64,000 bases of DNA from Halichondria panicea (taxonomy: Eukaryota > Porifera > Demospongiae > Suberitida > Halichondriidae): positions 1,860,001 to 1,924,000 of the forward strand of contig NC_087382.1 of assembly GCF_963675165.1 (NCBI RefSeq), in the 5' to 3' direction. A program made the position numbers and the translations under genes. Shown here piece by piece: positions 18,633-61,290 of this stretch. Position 1 is the first letter of the stretch, and each line of letters opens with the position of its first letter. The notes beneath the pieces are model-generated. The model worked only from the letters and a program-made list of their open reading frames with translations, searched no databases and was not told where the DNA came from.

Positions 18633-34869
<16,237 letters not shown>

Positions 34870-36343: not shown

Positions 36344-37131
36344 TTTGGTTTCATTAGTGGAGCCACTCCCTTTTTTTTTTACTGAGGGTTAAAGAGGGTG
36401 TGGTCTTGGTCGAATGACCACTAGATTACGGAGATGTTTTACAGAGAGGTGTCCAACAATAGATTACTGGCATAAGTAGTTTTACGACATTGAAGTGATT
36501 TCATAGACGGAAATCCGTAATCTTCTCCGTAATAATTAGCATAAAAAACCACAACAAGACACGCCCCACAAAATTCCATTTTAGCTGAGAAGCCCTGTAG
36601 TGCTAGCGCTAATATAATGGTGTTGTTTTTGTAGATACCTACACAATTGACTACGCTTGGCTTTGACTGTGCATATGTCTGCGCCATTATTAAGGCCTCT
36701 GATTGCAGCATCAAAGAGATACTCTGCAGTCCGAGTCATCATTGACACATCAGGTGGGCCAGCAATCAACAACAATGCTGTCATTAGTGGTATTATGGTT
36801 TGGCTCAGTTTCAATGTACTTTAATAGACCCAGTAGCTATATCTATCAGACATAATAACTAGTAGTGTGCAGCAGCTATAGATATAATTACAGTGAAATA
36901 TAAATTAATTGCAGTGAGCTGGAGAGAAGTGAAAGTTGCCCTGCAAAGAAAACTGAGTAAGATCAATTGCTCCTACAATTTATCTTTAGGTGAGTTGTAG
37001 AGCTGACATGCATACTTATTAGTAACTAAACTAACAGTGTACACTGTATTGTGCAGCATTGTGTCTCTACTATAATAGCTGGCTCTCATGTGACATTGTC
37101 ATTTCCTACCTAGCAGTGCTACAGCTACAAG
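36344..37131. other. putative shared upstream region of the Frizzled gene and minus-strand gene
   Basis: Divergent arrangement: candidate minus-strand exon at 36343 and Frizzled start at 37132. The minus-strand frame around 36581-36814 has a hydrophobic start but begins with TTG and is preceded by an in-frame stop, so it is not called. An acceptor-like 'tgtattgtgcag' at 37046-37057 may end a Frizzled 5'-UTR intron. Confidence 0.4.
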
Positions 37132-38799
37132 ATGAGGCAGCTCAAGTTACAAGTGCTGCTCTCCACGTTATTATCGTATCTTTCGGTGGTTATTGGGCAA
37201 TCGTGCAATTTCAGCCCCAACCCAAACGCTCAGTGCCTCCCTGTACTAAACAACGTCTGCAAGACTGTCGGCTACAACATGACATCACTACCAAACTTAT
37301 TCAATCACTCGACACAGCAAGAAGCCGAAGCATTTTTTAACAAAATAGCACCCATATTTCATACGAGCTGCTCCGTATATTTAGCTCACTTTCTCTGCTC
37401 TGCAACACACCCTATCTGTTTTCCGAATCAGTTTCAACAAATTCATCCGTGCCGAGAGTTGTGCACGGCTGTGAGAGAAACCTGTATACCCACCCTTCGT
37501 CAGATCGGCCTAGAATGGCCGGATGAACTCGACTGTACTCTTTACAGCTCCTACCAGGACTCCCTGTGTGTGTGGACTCAGGCCAACCCGTGCAGCACGA
37601 TGGGAAGATCGATGAACGAAGATAATCGAGTTATTGTCAATAGAGTGAACGTGAATTGCTCCGGACGCCTTGTCAAACTTCAGAATTCAAGTAATTATGA
37701 TTTCGGAAGTGTGAAGCATTGTACCGAGCCTTGCAGTGGTGTGTATTTTGACCAGGAGAAGCAAGAGATTCTGTTGATTTGGATCACTATCATCAGTTTG
37801 ATCACTCTCCTCGTGTGCGTGATTATTTTTCTCACTTTCATATTCAACTATAGAAAAATCCCAAACCTCGAGACTCCTATCTACTATATTGCAGTTTGCT
37901 ATGGCATCTCTTCGTTAACCTATGTCATTTCGATAACTATTGGCAAAGAATCTATCATCTGCAATACGGAATTTAAAAATCAGCATAACGAGAGTGCCCT
38001 ACTCACGAATGCGCAAGACCACCCCCTGTGTTTGATTCTATTCTGTGTTCTCTATTATTCGATTCTTTGCACCTGGTCTTGGTGGGTGATTTGTAGCCTT
38101 CAATGGCTTATAACATCTCTCAAGTCCACGAACATGTCAACCAAATGGAAGATATGTTTTCACATAATTGCATGGTGCATTCCGCTTGTATTCACTCTGA
38201 CAGCACTCTCACTGGGTCATGTTGCCGGAGATGCCACTGTTAAAACCTGCTGGATTGAAAAGCACTATGAATTACCATTTCTTGTTGCTCCATTGTCGAC
38301 TGCTGTGGTTATATGTTCCGTCGTTCTTGTTGTGTGTTTTGCACGAGTCGTTAAACTTCAGAAATCCAAGAAACCTGAATCAGATATCGCAAAAATAAGT
38401 GCTTTAACTTTGGTCCGTGTTGGGCTCTACTGTACAGTCTATTTGATTCCTATGGGACTCTTGTTATGTGCCTATTTCTACGAGTTTTGGTACAGAGAAG
38501 AATGGGAGATACAGTATTTGAAGTGTGTGAATTCAGCAGCTAGTAACTGTGAAAATAGCGGCTCTCCCGTTTATGCAATCTTCATGATAAAAATAGCGTC
38601 TATGTTGAGTATGGGAACTGTGTCTTTGTTGTGGATACTCAGATCTGATTTGATAACAATCTGGAGGAAATTTTGTTGCTTTTGCACTACAAATGTGCCC
38701 GAACATAACATTGTTTATACACCAAATGGAAGGTATACACCAACCTTTCAGCTTCATCATGCCATGGATTACCCCACTTCTAGTGATTCGTCTGTTTGA
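37132..38799 (+). CDS. Frizzled-family Wnt receptor, intronless, lacking KTxxxW
   Basis: 555 aa. Signal peptide 1-23 (MRQLKLQVLLSTLLSYLSVV IGQ). A cysteine-rich Wnt-binding domain follows with Cys at 25, 35, 43, 80, 89, 96, 107, 111, 118, 135, 146 and 154; PCRELCTAVRETC is the usual CRD signature. Seven transmembrane segments follow from about residue 214 (ILLIWITIISLITLLVCVII) to about 512. The cytoplasmic site just after TM7, normally KTxxxW for Dishevelled, reads SDLITIW: the Trp is kept but Lys-Thr is missing. The protein ends SSDSSV, a possible class I PDZ ligand (S-x-V). It is intronless while neighbouring genes have many introns. Role: Wnt or Wnt-like reception at the plasma membrane, perhaps Dishevelled-independent. 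Confidence 0.9.
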   Translation: MRQLKLQVLLSTLLSYLSVVIGQSCNFSPNPNAQCLPVLNNVCKTVGYNMTSLPNLFNHSTQQEAEAFFNKIAPIFHTSCSVYLAHFLCSATHPICFPNQFQQIHPCRELCTAVRETCIPTLRQIGLEWPDELDCTLYSSYQDSLCVWTQANPCSTMGRSMNEDNRVIVNRVNVNCSGRLVKLQNSSNYDFGSVKHCTEPCSGVYFDQEKQEILLIWITIISLITLLVCVIIFLTFIFNYRKIPNLETPIYYIAVCYGISSLTYVISITIGKESIICNTEFKNQHNESALLTNAQDHPLCLILFCVLYYSILCTWSWWVICSLQWLITSLKSTNMSTKWKICFHIIAWCIPLVFTLTALSLGHVAGDATVKTCWIEKHYELPFLVAPLSTAVVICSVVLVVCFARVVKLQKSKKPESDIAKISALTLVRVGLYCTVYLIPMGLLLCAYFYEFWYREEWEIQYLKCVNSAASNCENSGSPVYAIFMIKIASMLSMGTVSLLWILRSDLITIWRKFCCFCTTNVPEHNIVYTPNGRYTPTFQLHHAMDYPTSSDSSV

Positions 38800-55372: not shown

Positions 55373-58300
55373 TCACCTTCGTGCTCTCTTGGCAACTGCA
55401 ATTAGGATATAATTATACCATGCACACATGCCTCTACTCTATATACATTTGCATACCTTGTGGTCCATTGGCAATTTTTAAGATGGCGCCCTCAACGTCT
55501 GAGCACAGGTTGTCTAGACCCACAGCCTTTGATTCGAGAGCACTCAGGAAAGTTTCAAGGTAGCAGTTAGAACCGCTTTGAAACCACTTCAGCAGCATTG
55601 CACGGAAACACTCTCCAACATCCAAAGGATTGTTTGTCCTAATGGCACTCAAATCGTCCCCAGACAAACCCAGATTATTACCAATGTTTGACCACTTTCC
55701 CCTTCCCCTGTACGCAGCGTCATACAGAGCGTTGAGGTACGGCTTTTCAGAGGGGGAGAGTTGGACTGTAAAAATGAATACAGGCTTGTATATAATTATA
55801 TGTACATGTACTTTATTAAGTGTAAGTTTGATGTCATTGTTGCAAGCTTCCTATACTACCGTATAGCAGGTAATTTTCGGGGGACAAAATATTCGTGGTT
55901 CAGCAATATTGAGACATTTCGTGGATAATATTTTCGTGGTTGCCGTGCTTGGATTGTAGGTAAAGGTAGGCAAGGCCGCTTCATTCGTGGGTAAAATATT
56001 CGTGATCAGACCTCCAACCACGAAAACCACGAATATTTTGCCCCACGAAAATTACCAGCTATACGATATTAGATCTATACCCATGTAAGTGAGGATAGAT
56101 GATAAACTTAAATAGCTGTATACATGCAGACTCAGGGTGCAATGTCTTTTTATGAAAGAAGTCAGCCTCCAATGCAGGAACAGTAGCATAATTATGCCTC
56201 GGTGCGCACGGCGCAAGCGAGGTATACGGTAGTGTGTTTGTGTGTGTGTGTGTGTGTCTGTGTAGACTGCTACAGCTGCTCAAGGATGAGTTTCTATAGG
56301 CTTCTAGTCATGTTTACTTGGATTTTAATTCGTGAATAATGCTTCATTCTCGAGTTATGCCTAGTTTTGCTTACTTGGAATGCCATTGCAGCCTTTTTAG
56401 AAGAGCATGTAGCCAAACTTGTTTACCGAGTGTTGCTAATCTACTTAGTAGTTAGCTCTGCACTAGAACGCTAGCTATTGGTAGCTGCAAGAGTGAGAAG
56501 AGAGCTGCAAGGCTCTGCTGATGGCAGCCATTAATTTTAGACTTGAACTTTTGGCATCGATCGTTTTAACAACAATCATGGTCGATCATTACCCACTCTC
56601 TGAGTTTTTGCCAGCAGCAAAATTAAATTGTTTTTATCATGTGCATAAAAGCTATTAGTAGCAGCTTTATGTTATGTAGCTTTGGCATCTCCACCGAGGC
56701 ATCAGCACCTGCGGTGCTTTCATTATCATAGCTATAACTATACCTAAAAAGGGTATTTGTGGTTTTACTATGATGCCCTTGCTCTGGACGAATGTATAAG
56801 TACATGTTGTGCAAACCATAAATTAGTTGTATAGGCTCATGCATGCAGTTCCCAAGAATTAGGGACTAGAACAATCTTTACCAAGACTGAATATGTTTTG
56901 ATGGTAAACATAACGTTATTCCTGTGCACTATAATTAATTGAATCCACTCACTTTGCCCGTAGGAAGGTACAGCTCGCTGTGGGACTGAGCCTGATCCAA
57001 GTGAGAGTGTAAAAGATATATAGACAGATATAAATTATATATATAGCCTTTAGGTAAAGCTTTTACTACTGTATATATATAGTACTTACTGTTGTTTGGG
57101 GTCGGAGAGGCTGGTGACTCTCCTCCTAAAATCACAAAATGTAATGCATGAATATATATAAGTGAATGGACACACCGTAAATCTTTTGTAGAAAATCAAG
57201 ATCTTTCTCTGAAGGCCCATCAGCACAACTCCGATGTCTCTTGTGAATCCCTCTCAAAACTGTCTTTGCTTCTTCACTGAGACATCTATCAGCCTCAAAT
57301 TTTAATAGAGTCTTGTGGTCCTTCTTTTTAAGCCAGTTCACATCAAACCTATAGACATAGCACACAACAGTAATAATTATATATATAGCCGTATATAGTG
57401 CGAAATTTTTGAGGCACTGAAATTTCGTGGAATAGCCTCTAACAGCATTTTGGTGAATAAATTTTGTGAGTTTAACTGCTTATATTGAAAGCCACGCCAT
57501 TAATCTTTGCACGTTATTAGCAGATTTCGTGCATATTCGTGTAGGTGCTAACCCACGAAACGAAAAGAGCGGAAATTAAACCTCTCAAAGATTTCGCTAT
57601 CACTCTGGAATTGTTACAATTTACCAGTAGTGCATGATGCTGTCTGGATCGTATGGCGATATTGTTGTGGGACCTTCTGACTCCATTTGCAAAATATCTA
57701 TGCCAAAATTCACGTTCTTCATTCGAGAATCCTTTTTCATTTTTTCCACATCCAACAAGCTGTTCGCTACCTTCCAGAAGTCAGAACGCTGGTGCTCGTG
57801 GAACAGACCAAGAGCATGGCCAAACTCATGCATGACAAGAAATTTCTGCTCGTTGGGTACTTTACCATTTAGTGAAAGGACCATTGTGGGCTTAGACTTA
57901 TCTACAACTTTCGTCGCTTGGCTACCAACCTCGGAATGAGATCTATCACCTGTGCGGCCAAACACTGCTTGGATTCAGAATCTTAAAATAGTTAGTACCT
58001 TCTTCAAACTTGACTCTGATGTCAGCTGATTCTGGCCTACCCGTCTTCTTAAAGATTGGAATATTGGGACACTTCTTGGTATTCCAAGCGGCAGCCCAAC
58101 TAAGGATATTAGTGGTGTTGAGTACACCATACTCACACTTCCAGTTTTCCTGATCAAGAATTTCGGGATTGAGAAAGTGGACATTCAGGACGTCCTTCTC
58201 AGTCCAGATGTTGGAATTTTGAGCGTAGGCACCAGCTCCTGCCTGGTTAGCATCACTCGAGGCTGCAGCTTCGTCTGCAATCAACGATTCCGTGCAGTAT

Positions 58301-59848
58301 GTCTGTAAATACGTATCAAGTAAAGTATATGCATGGGCATTTCCTATCAAATATACTTGCTAACCAAAGTTGGTGAAACCAGGGGCTCTTCAGTCATACC
58401 AGGGGAAACTGGAGTTGGCTGGTCTTGTGTCCTCTGCAATTAAATACATGCAGTATACATGCAGTAACTACATAAATTATGGTGGTTTGGAGGTAAGGAT
58501 ATAAGGGAGCTGCATGGGTATGCTTCTTTTAGCCTCTCAGAGATCGATGCATTGGCACAGCCGGGAGTGCACATACCCATCATAATCACTGACGTGACCA
58601 ATCTTAAACTATTTATAGAGCATAAAACAAATTAGAATGCCATTAATATACCTCGGTGTACGCATGCATGCGCGCGAGGTGTACGGTAGTGTGTTTGTAT
58701 GTCTGTGTGTGTATCAATGAAGTGCAAGTAAGAGCTTTTATAGTCATGTTTTTTTGGATTGCAATTAGCCAAAATATTCGAGTTATAGCTATAGGTTTGC
58801 TCATGGGAAGGCCATTGCAACCTTTTCAGAAGAGTGCGTAGCAAAACTTGTCCATGGAGTGTTTTAGTAGTTAGCTCTGCACTAGAACGCTATAGCTATT
58901 GGTAGCTAAAAGAGTGAGAAGAGAGCTGCAAGACTAAATTGATGCATGCAACCATTAAATAATATTTCAGACTTCGGACTTTTGGCATCCTTTTAGAACA
59001 TATACAATCATGCATGGCTAGTCGATCATTTCCCTTTGTCATGATAATTATGTCATTGTGTGTATTATAGCAGGAGCTCATAAACAAGAGCAGCTGACTT
59101 CAACGTGTACTCGGGGATCACGTTTCGTAATTGCCAGTGAAATTGCACTTCCTTGTATGGAAGTAACTATAAGTGCTTGCAAACCGCAGCCCTGTATTGC
59201 ATATAACACGTATATAGGGATTCGTGGCTCTGCATATATTGAAATGCGGTCATAACCACTTATGAAACGTGATCCACGTAGTCAGCCGCTCCTTCTCTTA
59301 TTTATGTATTAGCAATAGCTACATAGTATATATATAGCTTTATGTTAGGTAGCTTTAACACATCCACTGAGGCATCAGCACCCACGGTGCTTTAGATGCA
59401 GAGTAAATACAGTCGGACATGCATACACGGTATTTATACAATCTGGCTGGGACTTTCAAAATTAAGGGGATGTATAATTATCTTGCTACAATATATATAC
59501 TACTCTTGCAAAGCAGTTTATATCAAAGTCTATAGTATCTATACATGTACGATAACTAAGCATCTGCATGTAGTTTTACAAAACCCTGGTAGATCTATTA
59601 CTATATATAGTATAATTCACACTCACCGTTGGCACTGCATTTATCTGGCATCCATCTTGTACCTCCTCGAATCTTGTCAGCTTTTTGTATTTATTAAACC
59701 TTTCACTCCATATCTGCAGATGAGAGATGCTGCCTTTGTTGAGTGTTTCTTCAACAAGAACTTTAAGAGTATCAATGCTATTAGATTTAGTAATATCAAT
59801 CTCTTCATTGCTATCTTCATCCCGGTTAAAAACCACTAGAGCAGCCAT
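55373..59848 (-). CDS. astacin-like metalloprotease with C-terminal Death domain, no signal peptide
   Basis: Exons 59848-59627, 58433-58365, 58302-57999, 57964-57625, 57348-57176, 57125-57090, 56991-56953, 55765-55457, 55395-55373 (504 aa; phases all agree). Residues 1-74 start MAALVVFNRDEDSNEEIDIT, with no hydrophobic leader; they look like a small beta-grasp (ubiquitin/DCX-like) domain (LQIWSERFNKYKKLTRFEEV, QDGCQI). A Pro/Thr linker follows (75-97). The catalytic domain (about 98-315) has HEFGHALGLFHEHQRSDF at 244-261: three zinc His (244, 248, 254) and Glu245. The Met-turn SIMHYW lies at 307-312, with the astacin-type Tyr311. After a Lys-rich and Ser/Pro linker, residues about 398-490 form a Death domain (GKWSNIGNNLGLSGDDLSAI; CFRAMLLKWFQSGSNCYLET; FLSALESKAV). 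Likely an active intracellular zinc endopeptidase recruited by Death-domain contacts. Partner and substrate unknown. Confidence 0.85.
55857..56070. mobile_element. palindromic MITE, intronic
   Basis: ACCGTATAGCAGGTAATTTT with ACAAAATATTCGTGG pairs with CCACGAATATTTTG and AAAATTACCAGCTATACG at the right end. About 213 bp, in the intron upstream of the Death-domain exon. Confidence 0.8.
56193..56733 (+). mobile_element. 540-bp non-autonomous element, complete copy (intronic)
   Basis: Begins CCTCGGTGCGCACGGCGCAA, carries an internal (GT)n, then 'gacttgaacttttggcatcg', and ends 'ccaccgaggcatcagcacct'. Both ends contain CCTCGGTG / CACCGAGG inverted motifs. Family members occur at 13.8, 19.2, 54.0, 58.6, 60.8 and 63.4 kb. 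No coding frame. Confidence 0.75.
57385..57605. mobile_element. palindromic MITE, intronic (diverged)
   Basis: A left GCCGTATATAGTGCGAAATTT and right AAAGATTTCGCTAT arm with internal TTTCGTGG / CCCACGAAA pairs. It lies in the intron between the catalytic exon and the next exon of the metalloprotease gene. More decayed than the others. Confidence 0.5.
58649..59395 (+). mobile_element. 540-bp element copy interrupted by a 258-bp MITE, intronic
   Basis: The 5' half of the family (CCTCGGTGTACGCATGCATG onward) runs to about 59070 and the 3' end (gttaggtagctttaacacat...gaggcatcagcacccacgg) resumes near 59340. Between them lies a MITE related to 26429-26686, showing nested insertion. Confidence 0.75.
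59071..59312. mobile_element. second copy of the CAGGAG MITE, nested
   Basis: Begins CAGGAGCTCATAAACAAGAG and ends GCCGCTCCTTCTCTTATTTA. It contains the same GGGGATCACGTTTCGTAA block as 26429-26686, with the interior in opposite orientation and about 15 bp shorter. The terminal match is degraded. Confidence 0.7.
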
Positions 59849-61290
59849 AACTTAAATTCGCCCTGCTTTTGCTAAGCGATTAGCTAAGATCATAGATCAG
59901 CAAAGCTGTTTATAGGGCAAAGGATTTTTCTGGGACTTTCCTTTGTGCAAAGATCTTTACCTAATCGTGGCTACTAATAGACCAATCAGATTGCAGGATT
60001 CTATTGGACTGCATTCACGCGCCATACTGAAGGGAGGAGGTACAGTACTGGTGGTTTCCTAGGGGCGTAGAAAAAGTTGTTTAATGATATTCATTGAGCG
60101 GCATACTGGGGGAGGTACAGTATGCGGTGGTACAGGGATTTGAGGAATTCTTGCAACTGTGATGTCGAGAGCGGAAGTACCTGTCACGTGAACCGTTACG
60201 TAACAAGATTAAATTTTGGCTTATTCCAATCCAATTTTTCTCCAATTGAGCTTATTTATTTTGTTAAACTGGGAAAACATCGACTTACATAAGCTTTGGC
60301 AAAGGCTTTGCCATGCTGAAGCTATCCTTGAGATTCTAATCCTTTTGTGAGCTACTACTTGCCCCAGCCTGCCCCCGTAAGCTGTTGAAAAGTGTATCAC
60401 TACTAGTGACTTTACTAAGACTAGTGACACTAAGTCTCATAAAATCTCTCTTACTGTCTTAGGCTTGCTCCAGCTGGATACACAGTTCTGTGACACAGGC
60501 TGTGTGACAGACTAATACTACTAATAGTAGTAGCTCACAAAAAGATTGGAAATGCTCAAGGATAGCTTTAGCTAGCTAGCTAGGTCGATAAGGCCTAAAT
60601 GCTTTATTAGAGAAAAATTGGTTTGGAATGAGCCAGAATTACGTAACTGTCACGTGACTGGTACTTCTGCTGACATTACAGTTGCAGAACTCCTCAAATC
60701 CCTGTAGAAAAAGTTGTTTATTGAGTTGCACATGCGCAGTAGCTCAGAACATGCCCACACTCACGCACACGGCAGTAATCATTGTGGATCATTACCTACT
60801 CTTTGTGATTTTGGATTCTGCCTGTATGCTAAATAATGCAAAAATGTTCATCATGATAAAGCTATTGCTAATAGCTAGTAGCTTTATGTTATGTAGCTTT
60901 GAATCCACTGAGGCATCAGCACCTGCGGTGCTTTCAAGCGTTTGTTTGCTGCTTCGTGTAAACCAAAACCTAATTATTACTGTATATGCATGCCTAATAT
61001 TCTTAGTACTGATTACAACATGTACACCCACCCACCCCATACACTGGCCAGCCCCAGCCCATGCAATATTTATCTCACCACCCAGGTTGCGCTTGCAGTC
61101 TAACAAAACTACCATGTATCTCTTTTTTTTACCTTCCTCAATTTAGCTAATTTTCTTTTCGCCTTAACATTTTTTAAATGTAGACAACGTGCATGTAATA
61201 TAATTATTGAAATTATAACAGTTTGATTGATTGCATAAGCCACACCGCACACACACATTCATTATTTTTACTTTTATTAGGGTGATAAGT
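59849..61290. other. upstream region of the metalloprotease gene and 3' flank of prolyl 3-hydroxylase
   Basis: Both flanking genes are on the minus strand, so this holds the protease promoter. It contains the 577-bp inverted-terminus element (60131-60707) and a 3' fragment of the 540-bp family (about 60760-60945). No gene recognised. Confidence 0.55.
60131..60707. mobile_element. 577-bp DNA-transposon-like element with ~110-bp inverted termini
   Basis: CAGGGATTTGAGGAATTCTT at the left recurs inverted as GAACTCCTCAAATCCCTG at the right. The matching continues inward through CACGTGA, GTTACGTAA and the GGCTTATTCC / GGAATGAGCC region. TA on both sides could be a target duplication (Tc1/mariner style). 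No transposase frame. Confidence 0.8.

Follow-up and report, generated by a model that had tools for sequence, protein, structure and literature searches.

The window analysed here, a stretch of 64,000 nucleotides from the sponge Halichondria panicea (contig NC_087382.1, positions 1,860,001 to 1,924,000; positions below are counted from its first base), carries on its minus strand, at 59848-55373, a gene of nine exons. Its predicted product of 499 amino acids (aa) plus stop comprises, in order, an N-terminal domain with weak evidence for a ubiquitin-like fold, an astacin-type zinc protease and a FADD-like Death domain. The zinc site is intact and a conserved cysteine precedes the catalytic domain, and in the same genome of 131 Mb, over which the paralogue and domain searches were made, the protease belongs to a family, with 49 protease-exon matches of which some are incomplete or contain stops, whose fusion to Death or CARD domains can be read repeatedly from the DNA. 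The explanation to which we incline, with slightly more confidence than doubt, is that these proteins are cytosolic zymogen metzincins that would be drawn to death-fold platforms and become active there, as a route parallel to that of caspases.

The protease and the Death domain belong to one gene

All eight introns of the gene have GT-AG borders and agreeing phases, which bears out the nine phase-consistent exons proposed in a preliminary description of this DNA. The product length of 504 aa given there is revised to 499 aa, since 504 fits an acceptor 15 bases upstream of the one adopted here for exon 4 (57964 instead of 57949), and the start at 57949 is preferred because the paralogues are without the five extra residues.

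Splice-aware alignment of the 499 residues to the genome recovers the full exon order, with mostly the same intron phases, in four paralogues (C6:1935775-1931727, C3:1404101-1409528, C3:1418475-1422505 and C3:1818071-1812144), of which the C6 paralogue is a tandem copy that starts about 8 kb beyond the end of the window; the short linker exons vary among the four. A further C3 locus (L011/L047) retains the protease, linkers and Death domain together with a more distant N-terminal exon. The Death domain is 99% identical to the window copy in the tandem copy and 60-66% identical in the other paralogues, and each of the 6 genome matches to the N-terminal exon (itself included) lies 5' of a family protease. 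The joining of protease and Death domain in a single gene, as the preliminary description had it, is in this way repeated across four relatives.

The alternative, that the Death exon is part of a neighbouring gene and was joined in error, draws on the abundance of Death domains in this genome (at least 148 matches), on the length of intron 7 (1187 bases) and on the same-strand Death exons that also lie 5' within 4.5 kb of 6/49 protease matches, some of which belong to the preceding tandem gene. Over the same distance, however, a same-strand Death exon is found 3' of 12/49 protease matches and an opposite-strand one beside 2/49, as counted with a partial Death list (80 matches plus 15 picked from the at least 148). 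Because the four paralogues keep the domain order and most of the phases, and because Death exons favour the same-strand 3' side, a mis-joined neighbour is unlikely on this genomic comparison, and an error of this kind in the window gene itself would be highly improbable.

Recurrent fusion to death-fold domains

As judged from exon order, members of the family are repeatedly joined to death-fold domains, with a C-terminal Death, an N-terminal CARD, or CARD-like and Death-like domains together. A Death exon lies 3' of the protease in further C3 loci (L021, L025, L034 and L035) and, less alike, in L028 on C1; against Pfam Death, L021 scores 44.4 bits and L035 25.4, and L028, at 18.4, stays below cut-off. 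In L026 and L027 (C1), a CARD exon (24.7 bits in one and 17.7 in the other; cut-off 23.9), a proline-rich linker exon and the exon with the proposed cysteine switch discussed below are joined in identical phases (alignment, by eye). Both CARD-like and Death-like exons are found 5' of the protease in L017 and L018 (C7), the former recognised by their similarity to the C1 CARD (1e-7 and 9e-4) with no Pfam CARD match, the latter scoring 16-18 bits, below cut-off. Family proteases on C8 and C3 likewise have CARD-like exons on their 5' side.

Immediately 5' of the CARD-like exon in both C7 genes, at C7:4930664 (L018/L162) and C7:4954441 (L017/L161), stands the sequence GDVETNPGP, which has 9 exact copies in the genome, versus 0 for a reversed control pattern, and which we take to be 2A-like. 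N-terminal 2A-like sequences have been reported to serve both as signal sequence and as recoding element (PMC4981915).

An astacin-type catalytic domain close to bacterial myroilysin

Pfam Astacin (PF01400, M12A) matches the window gene product at aa 168-307 with 38.7 bits (cut-off 22.5), and both the HEXXHXXGXXHE zinc site, HEFGHALGLFHEH, and the Met-turn with its tyrosine, SIMHYW, are present as the preliminary description stated. The zinc-ligand histidines, the catalytic glutamate, the glutamate after the third histidine, the methionine and the tyrosine are invariant in 10 aligned family members, which were picked from the modelled copies and include no Glu-to-Gln copy. Over 30 family loci, the active-site motif reads HEFGH in 26 and HQFGH in four (L014, L015, L033 and L038); these four keep all three zinc histidines, the Met-turn of L033 is MHWW, and L014 also has an in-frame stop. 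A Pfam scan of the window gene product gave no match to Peptidase_C14 (caspase) or TRADD-N, and Matrixin (MMP) Peptidase_M10 reached 21.3 bits, under its cut-off of 24.

The sequence of the catalytic domain resembles bacterial myroilysin more closely than it does the PDB entries for secreted animal astacins, the family profile matching myroilysin at 1.9e-21, compared with 8e-7 for BMP1, 0.0003 for meprin beta and 0.0015 for astacin. The closest solved relatives by profile are accordingly the myroilysin-type bacterial M12A astacins (PDB 5GWD, 5CZW, 5ZJK), which have in common with the family the HEFGHALG..HEH zinc site, the lack of the astacin disulphide pair and, in many relatives, a cysteine in the propeptide region; unlike the window gene, they have no Death or CARD domain noted. 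A scan of bacterial and archaeal genomes gave relatives (the best 80 of 111) that are mostly about 27-36% identical to the family, many of which start with a hydrophobic or lipoprotein-like stretch (by eye, 15 sequences). They were selected via HEFGH[AV]LG or S[IV]MHYWF, so that the shared HEFGH is partly an effect of selection, and the 77 of the 80 fetched that had a usable frame (L103 being archaeal) form the prokaryotic rows of the comparisons below.

The disulphide pair characteristic of secreted astacins is found in 7/7 secreted astacins of the same genome (an eighth fetched locus, L003, gave no usable frame and is outside the 7), in 0/15 family members and in 1/77 prokaryotic relatives. 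The secreted animal astacins (astacin, BMP1/tolloid, meprin) share with the window gene the Pfam family, the zinc site and the Met-turn. For these enzymes a signal peptide and an FXGDI aspartate switch are described (PMC9848320); the window gene differs in that no signal peptide is seen, a cysteine stands in place of FXGDI, a motif not found anywhere in the 499 aa, and the disulphide pair is absent. One family protease match, C13:3675922, also scores as the secreted type. Separate from the death-fold family, a tandem cluster at C3:4783703-5010224 holds many secreted-type astacin exons, some with stops.

The family forms one clade in the tree (15/15 members, support 100). A first tree, of 61 rows (15 family, 7 secreted and 39 of the 77 prokaryotic), put this clade among the prokaryotic rows. 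No claim of a bacterial origin is made, as an approximately unbiased (AU) test, run after removal of 12 long or outlying prokaryotic rows, let the family and the secreted astacins be one clade (p 0.58).

A conserved cysteine ahead of the catalytic domain

Thirty residues ahead of the first tryptophan of the catalytic domain lies C100, within YCTESL. A cysteine occupies this place in 24/24 readable HEFGH copies (window gene included) versus 1/4 HQFGH copies (Fisher p 0.0012, a value that overstates the independence of the copies, L014 and L015 being sisters and L026-L036 holding close copies). These counts come from 28 of 32 loci, L037 (no match) and L019 (frame too short) being unreadable and L074 and L077 uncounted; the motif was scored by eye, with looser versions in L016, L021, L022 and L024 and an uncertain one in L038. 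A second family alignment was trimmed to start at the cysteine, and its invariance there is by choice. Among the prokaryotic relatives, a cysteine is found 12-60 residues before the corresponding tryptophan in 56/70, where 34% is expected from composition; this is not a clean test, as cysteines of lipoprotein or signal regions may contribute and 7 of the 77 are without a recognisable tryptophan. Ahead of that tryptophan, many of these relatives have MCKDVY, ICTELYPE or similar, and MCKDVY is presumably the motif that holds the switch residue of myroilysin.

With a conserved switch-type cysteine preceding the catalytic domain, the preliminary view that the enzyme has no propeptide is probably wrong, and a propeptide is probably present. 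Because C100 sits where many myroilysin-type bacterial relatives have a cysteine, the switch is likely to be a cysteine-zinc latch formed via this residue, and such a latch would suit a cytosolic enzyme, the thiol staying reduced there. The HQFGH copies (4/30, three of which are also without the cysteine) appear to have no activity that a latch could restrain; a role as decoy or brake is the natural guess for them.

The Death domain and the N-terminal domain

The C-terminal Death domain of the preliminary description is recovered by Pfam at aa 413-467 (23.3 bits, cut-off 22.6), and a profile of 10 related Death exons, including one C5 exon without known protease link, matches FADD in the PDB at 2.9e-6, with RIPK1, CRADD, ankyrins and PIDD weaker. 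An AlphaFold2 (AF2) model of the single Death exon has six helices at a predicted local distance difference test (pLDDT) score of 50.7.

The small beta-grasp-like domain proposed for the N-terminus fares less well. Its support is weak and consists of a PB1 match for 1/6 members (0.0038), a match over 69/72 positions to the N-terminal domain of BILBO1 (0.007), whose fold we take to be ubiquitin-like, and a beta-beta-alpha-beta-beta order in a single-sequence AF2 model (pLDDT 48.8). No Pfam family passed its cut-off in the N-terminal exon of either the window gene or L019. Matches of this domain to multicystatin (PDB, 0.0039 and 1.5e-4) contained no passing stretch and were set aside as chance.

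The 5' end and the probable location of the enzyme

An in-frame stop stands immediately upstream of the ATG, the start context AGTTATGG is repeated in all five copies examined, and each of these five has a TATA-type box at a distance of 47-74 bases, which reads TATAAA in the window gene and in three paralogues (-62 to -74 in these three) and TATAAG, at -47, in the fourth paralogue. No stretch of signal-peptide type is seen by eye in the N-terminus MAALVVFNRDEDSNEEID. The absence of an N-terminal signal peptide noted in the preliminary description is upheld, and, given the in-frame stop, the recurring start context and TATA-type box and the lack of a hydrophobic N-terminus, a hidden upstream exon encoding one is unlikely.

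At least one GGRRNNYYCC decamer, the kB consensus, lies upstream of the TATA-type box in each of the five regions (mononucleotide-shuffle probability 0.004-0.021 each, for copies that are related); it is offered as a lead.

These features bear on the proposal that the enzyme is exported, either unconventionally or via an unseen upstream exon, and acts extracellularly with the Death domain as a passenger. Astacins are described as extracellular (PMC9848320), and the C7 relatives begin with the 2A-like sequence; yet in the window gene the stop by the ATG, the nearby TATA box and the start context shared by five copies all speak for the annotated start, and the astacin disulphide pair is missing. 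We consider export very improbable and the cytosol the likelier location.

Selection and decay

Between the window gene and its tandem copy, 54/1167 nonsynonymous and 8/324 synonymous sites differ, together with 39/1774 positions of introns 2-8, and the Death exons are almost identical, perhaps through gene conversion. Nonsynonymous sites have changed more than the introns (p 0.0003), an excess not seen relative to synonymous sites (p 0.11). The intron differences are uneven, intron 1 being hardly alignable and introns 2 and 7 differing at 10/56 and 18/1187 positions, which suggests rearrangement or gene conversion; positive selection is not claimed. The ratio of nonsynonymous to synonymous change (dN/dS) against close paralogues is about 0.4-0.9 in most domains and above 1 in some linkers, whereas towards the distant C8 copy it falls to 0.26 in the N-terminal domain and 0.17 in the stretch of the protease that was compared, with synonymous sites saturated in both. 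Over long times the family appears to be under constraint, and over short times to be loose or diversifying.

The same values lend something to the idea of a fast-turnover, partly decaying family in which the fusion is real and the window copy, being little constrained, may have no important function: dN/dS for the tandem pair is not below 1, the values against close paralogues are high in places, and L014 and L019 carry in-frame stops. Against it stand the open frame across nine exons, the intact active site, the recurring promoter and start context and, with the saturation just mentioned, the low ratios towards the C8 copy. A window gene of little constraint and no important function is in our estimate improbable, if less so than an exported enzyme.

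Candidate platforms and a proposed mechanism

The genome holds at least 102 NACHT matches, each listed match being over cut-off, and 33 caspase-type matches. In 14 known prokaryote genomes used as controls, the Death model (PF00531) responded in 0, PF01400 in 1, the caspase-type model (PF00656) in 1 and PF05729 in 11 (over cut-off in 3), the NACHT model (PF05729) being the least specific of the family-search models. Of the 80 Death exons matched by the window's Death exon, 4 lie on the same strand 5' of a NACHT exon (38/102 NACHT places checked), and Death-NACHT receptors have been reported from sponges (PMC12909245). Among Death exons without a family protease seen beside them, the closest are in C5 multi-Death genes and in a C3 gene, and further Death domains adjoin them. 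The Death-NACHT genes, such as those at C10:4681535 and C9:2669733, and the multi-Death genes are candidate partners of the protease.

A gene at C3:1391037-1398532 (minus; L042 with L158) has the same Death type, a similar linker exon and a second Death domain, with MBT-like exons (by eye) upstream, where the protease would be.

From these observations we infer a cytosolic location, latency, a recruitment partner, activation by proximity, substrates and a role, in the following scheme. The enzyme would be a cytosolic zymogen metalloprotease gated by a cysteine-zinc latch at C100, and its C-terminal Death domain would dock it at oligomeric Death-domain assemblies, of which Death-NACHT receptors or multi-Death adaptors are the most plausible. 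Crowded together in this way, neighbours would cut each other's propeptide, or the cysteine would be displaced, and the released active metzincin would cut local substrates in an immune or cell-death response, much as a caspase with a Death or CARD prodomain might act, using an unrelated zinc enzyme.

A different role for the Death domain would be to place the protease and not to activate it, the enzyme acting only on or against Death assemblies as a brake, or the whole protein being a scaffold whose catalysis is dispensable. The retention of the three zinc histidines in the Glu-to-Gln copies (4/30) suggests that non-catalytic roles may exist, and the closest Death exons not seen beside a protease, in the C5 multi-Death genes and the C3 two-Death gene, could belong to adaptors. 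The HEFGH motif of 26/30 copies and the cysteine of all 24 readable active ones are hard to explain without catalysis. A brake or scaffold is fairly unlikely in our view, though it is the alternative to which most probability is given.

Several points weigh against recruitment and activation on death-fold platforms. The gene and the enzyme are known here from their DNA alone. The Death match in the window is barely above the Pfam cut-off, and the close copies L013 (17.6 bits) and L044 (22.1) fall below it; both AF2 models are of low confidence and are given no weight. The PDB profile alignment with myroilysin leaves out the cysteine, starting beyond it, so that the latch is argued from position and motif. 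The recent tandem pair has no excess of silent change, and purifying selection is not visible over the short term (relaxed or diversifying selection). Finally, because two C7 genes start with a 2A-like sequence, a kind reported as signal sequence, the family may include members that are not purely cytosolic.

A broader proposal is put forward more tentatively, namely that in some animals such metzincins form a second class of death-fold-recruited signalling proteases beside caspases, cysteine-latched, equipped with Death, CARD or CARD-Death modules, acting downstream of NACHT receptors, with Glu-to-Gln copies as decoys or brakes and expanded in this genome to dozens of complete or fragmentary genes; taken as a whole, we hold it to be possible but short of probable.

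Features of the window

The coordinates of the gene and its promoter elements are collected in Table 1. A dispersed repeat, GCACCGCAGGTGCTGATGCCTC, occurs in five copies with up to 2 mismatches (window 54204, 56696, 59369 and 60910 on the minus strand and 63445 on the plus strand), two of which sit in introns 1 and 7 of the gene. Elsewhere in the window are two near-identical open reading frames of about 370 aa in opposite orientation (25172-26281, plus, and 27161-28297, minus), each with a signal-like N-terminal stretch (by eye), and a Frizzled-like receptor frame of 561 aa (37114-38799, plus; by eye). Scans for tRNA genes, Rfam families (at the gathering threshold) and sigma-70-type promoters and terminators were empty.

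Table 1. Exons, motifs and upstream elements of the protease-Death gene, in window positions.
Feature	Position	Strand	Evidence
kB-like decamer GGAAAGTCCC, upstream of the TATA box; a lead only	59932..59941	-	GGRRNNYYCC in 5/5 paralogous upstream regions
TATAAA box, 66 bases upstream of the ATG	59909..59914	-	TATA-type box recurs in paralogues
Exon 1, aa 1-74; N-terminal ubiquitin-like/beta-grasp-like domain (putative); start codon at 59848	59627..59848	-	6 genome matches; weak BILBO1 profile match
Exon 2, aa 75-97; linker	58365..58433	-	Gene model
Exon 3, aa 98-199; propeptide-like segment with YCTESL, then the catalytic domain's first half, starting at W130	57999..58302	-	Gene model, family comparison
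C100 codon, proposed cysteine switch	58294..58296	-	Family comparison
Exon 4, aa 199-307; zinc-binding half of the catalytic domain	57625..57949	-	Gene model, Pfam, alignment
Zinc site HEFGHALGLFHEH, aa 239-251	57792..57830	-	H, E, H, H, E invariant in 10 aligned members
Met-turn SIMHYW, aa 302-307; W307 codon finished by exon 5	57625..57641	-	Gene model, alignment
Exon 5, aa 307-365; end of the catalytic domain and C-terminal tail	57176..57348	-	Gene model, paralogues
Exon 6; linker	57090..57125	-	Clear equivalent in 2/4 full-length paralogues (C6 copy, C3:1404101 copy); differs in the other two
Exon 7; linker (..PSYGQ)	56953..56991	-	..PSYG(Q/R) or PSHG.. ahead of the Death exon in paralogues
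Exon 8, aa 390-493; Death domain	55457..55765	-	Pfam, FADD profile match, six helices in a low-confidence model
Exon 9; VAKRARR and stop	55373..55395	-	Similar tail exon in 3/4 full-length paralogues

Relation to known systems and significance

Caspases are zymogen proteases joined to death-fold recruitment domains, and death-fold-driven proteolysis in animals is tied to them. The likeness of the window gene to caspases with Death, DED or CARD prodomains is one of logic alone, a zymogen protease with a death-fold recruitment domain; unlike caspases, it encodes an unrelated zinc protease. A further comparison is with the lineage-specific expansions of Death and TRADD-N domains reported from sponges and other marine animals, with 357 TRADD-N proteins in Amphimedon (PMC8195603); as in those expansions, Death-like domains of a marine invertebrate are here shuffled with effector enzymes. 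For Amphimedon, the potential effector enzymes listed in section 10 of that paper are caspase, PNPase and HD, with no astacin; the zincin it mentions is an inactive domain belonging to a bacterial system, and astacin occurs once, in the reference list (PMC8195603). Rare metallopeptidase effectors are reported from prokaryotic conflict systems (PMC7159879). No description of an astacin joined to Death or CARD domains was found in the titles and abstract beginnings of the literature, mostly without subscription papers.

If the proposed mechanism is true, a distinct family of zinc proteases, equipped with Death and CARD modules, would show the same wiring built from unrelated chemistry, and within the literature searched it would also be the first case of an astacin-type enzyme described as working inside cells. 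Whether early animals have non-caspase effectors becomes a directly testable question, and some animals may run cell-death or immune signals via a metalloprotease as well as via caspases.

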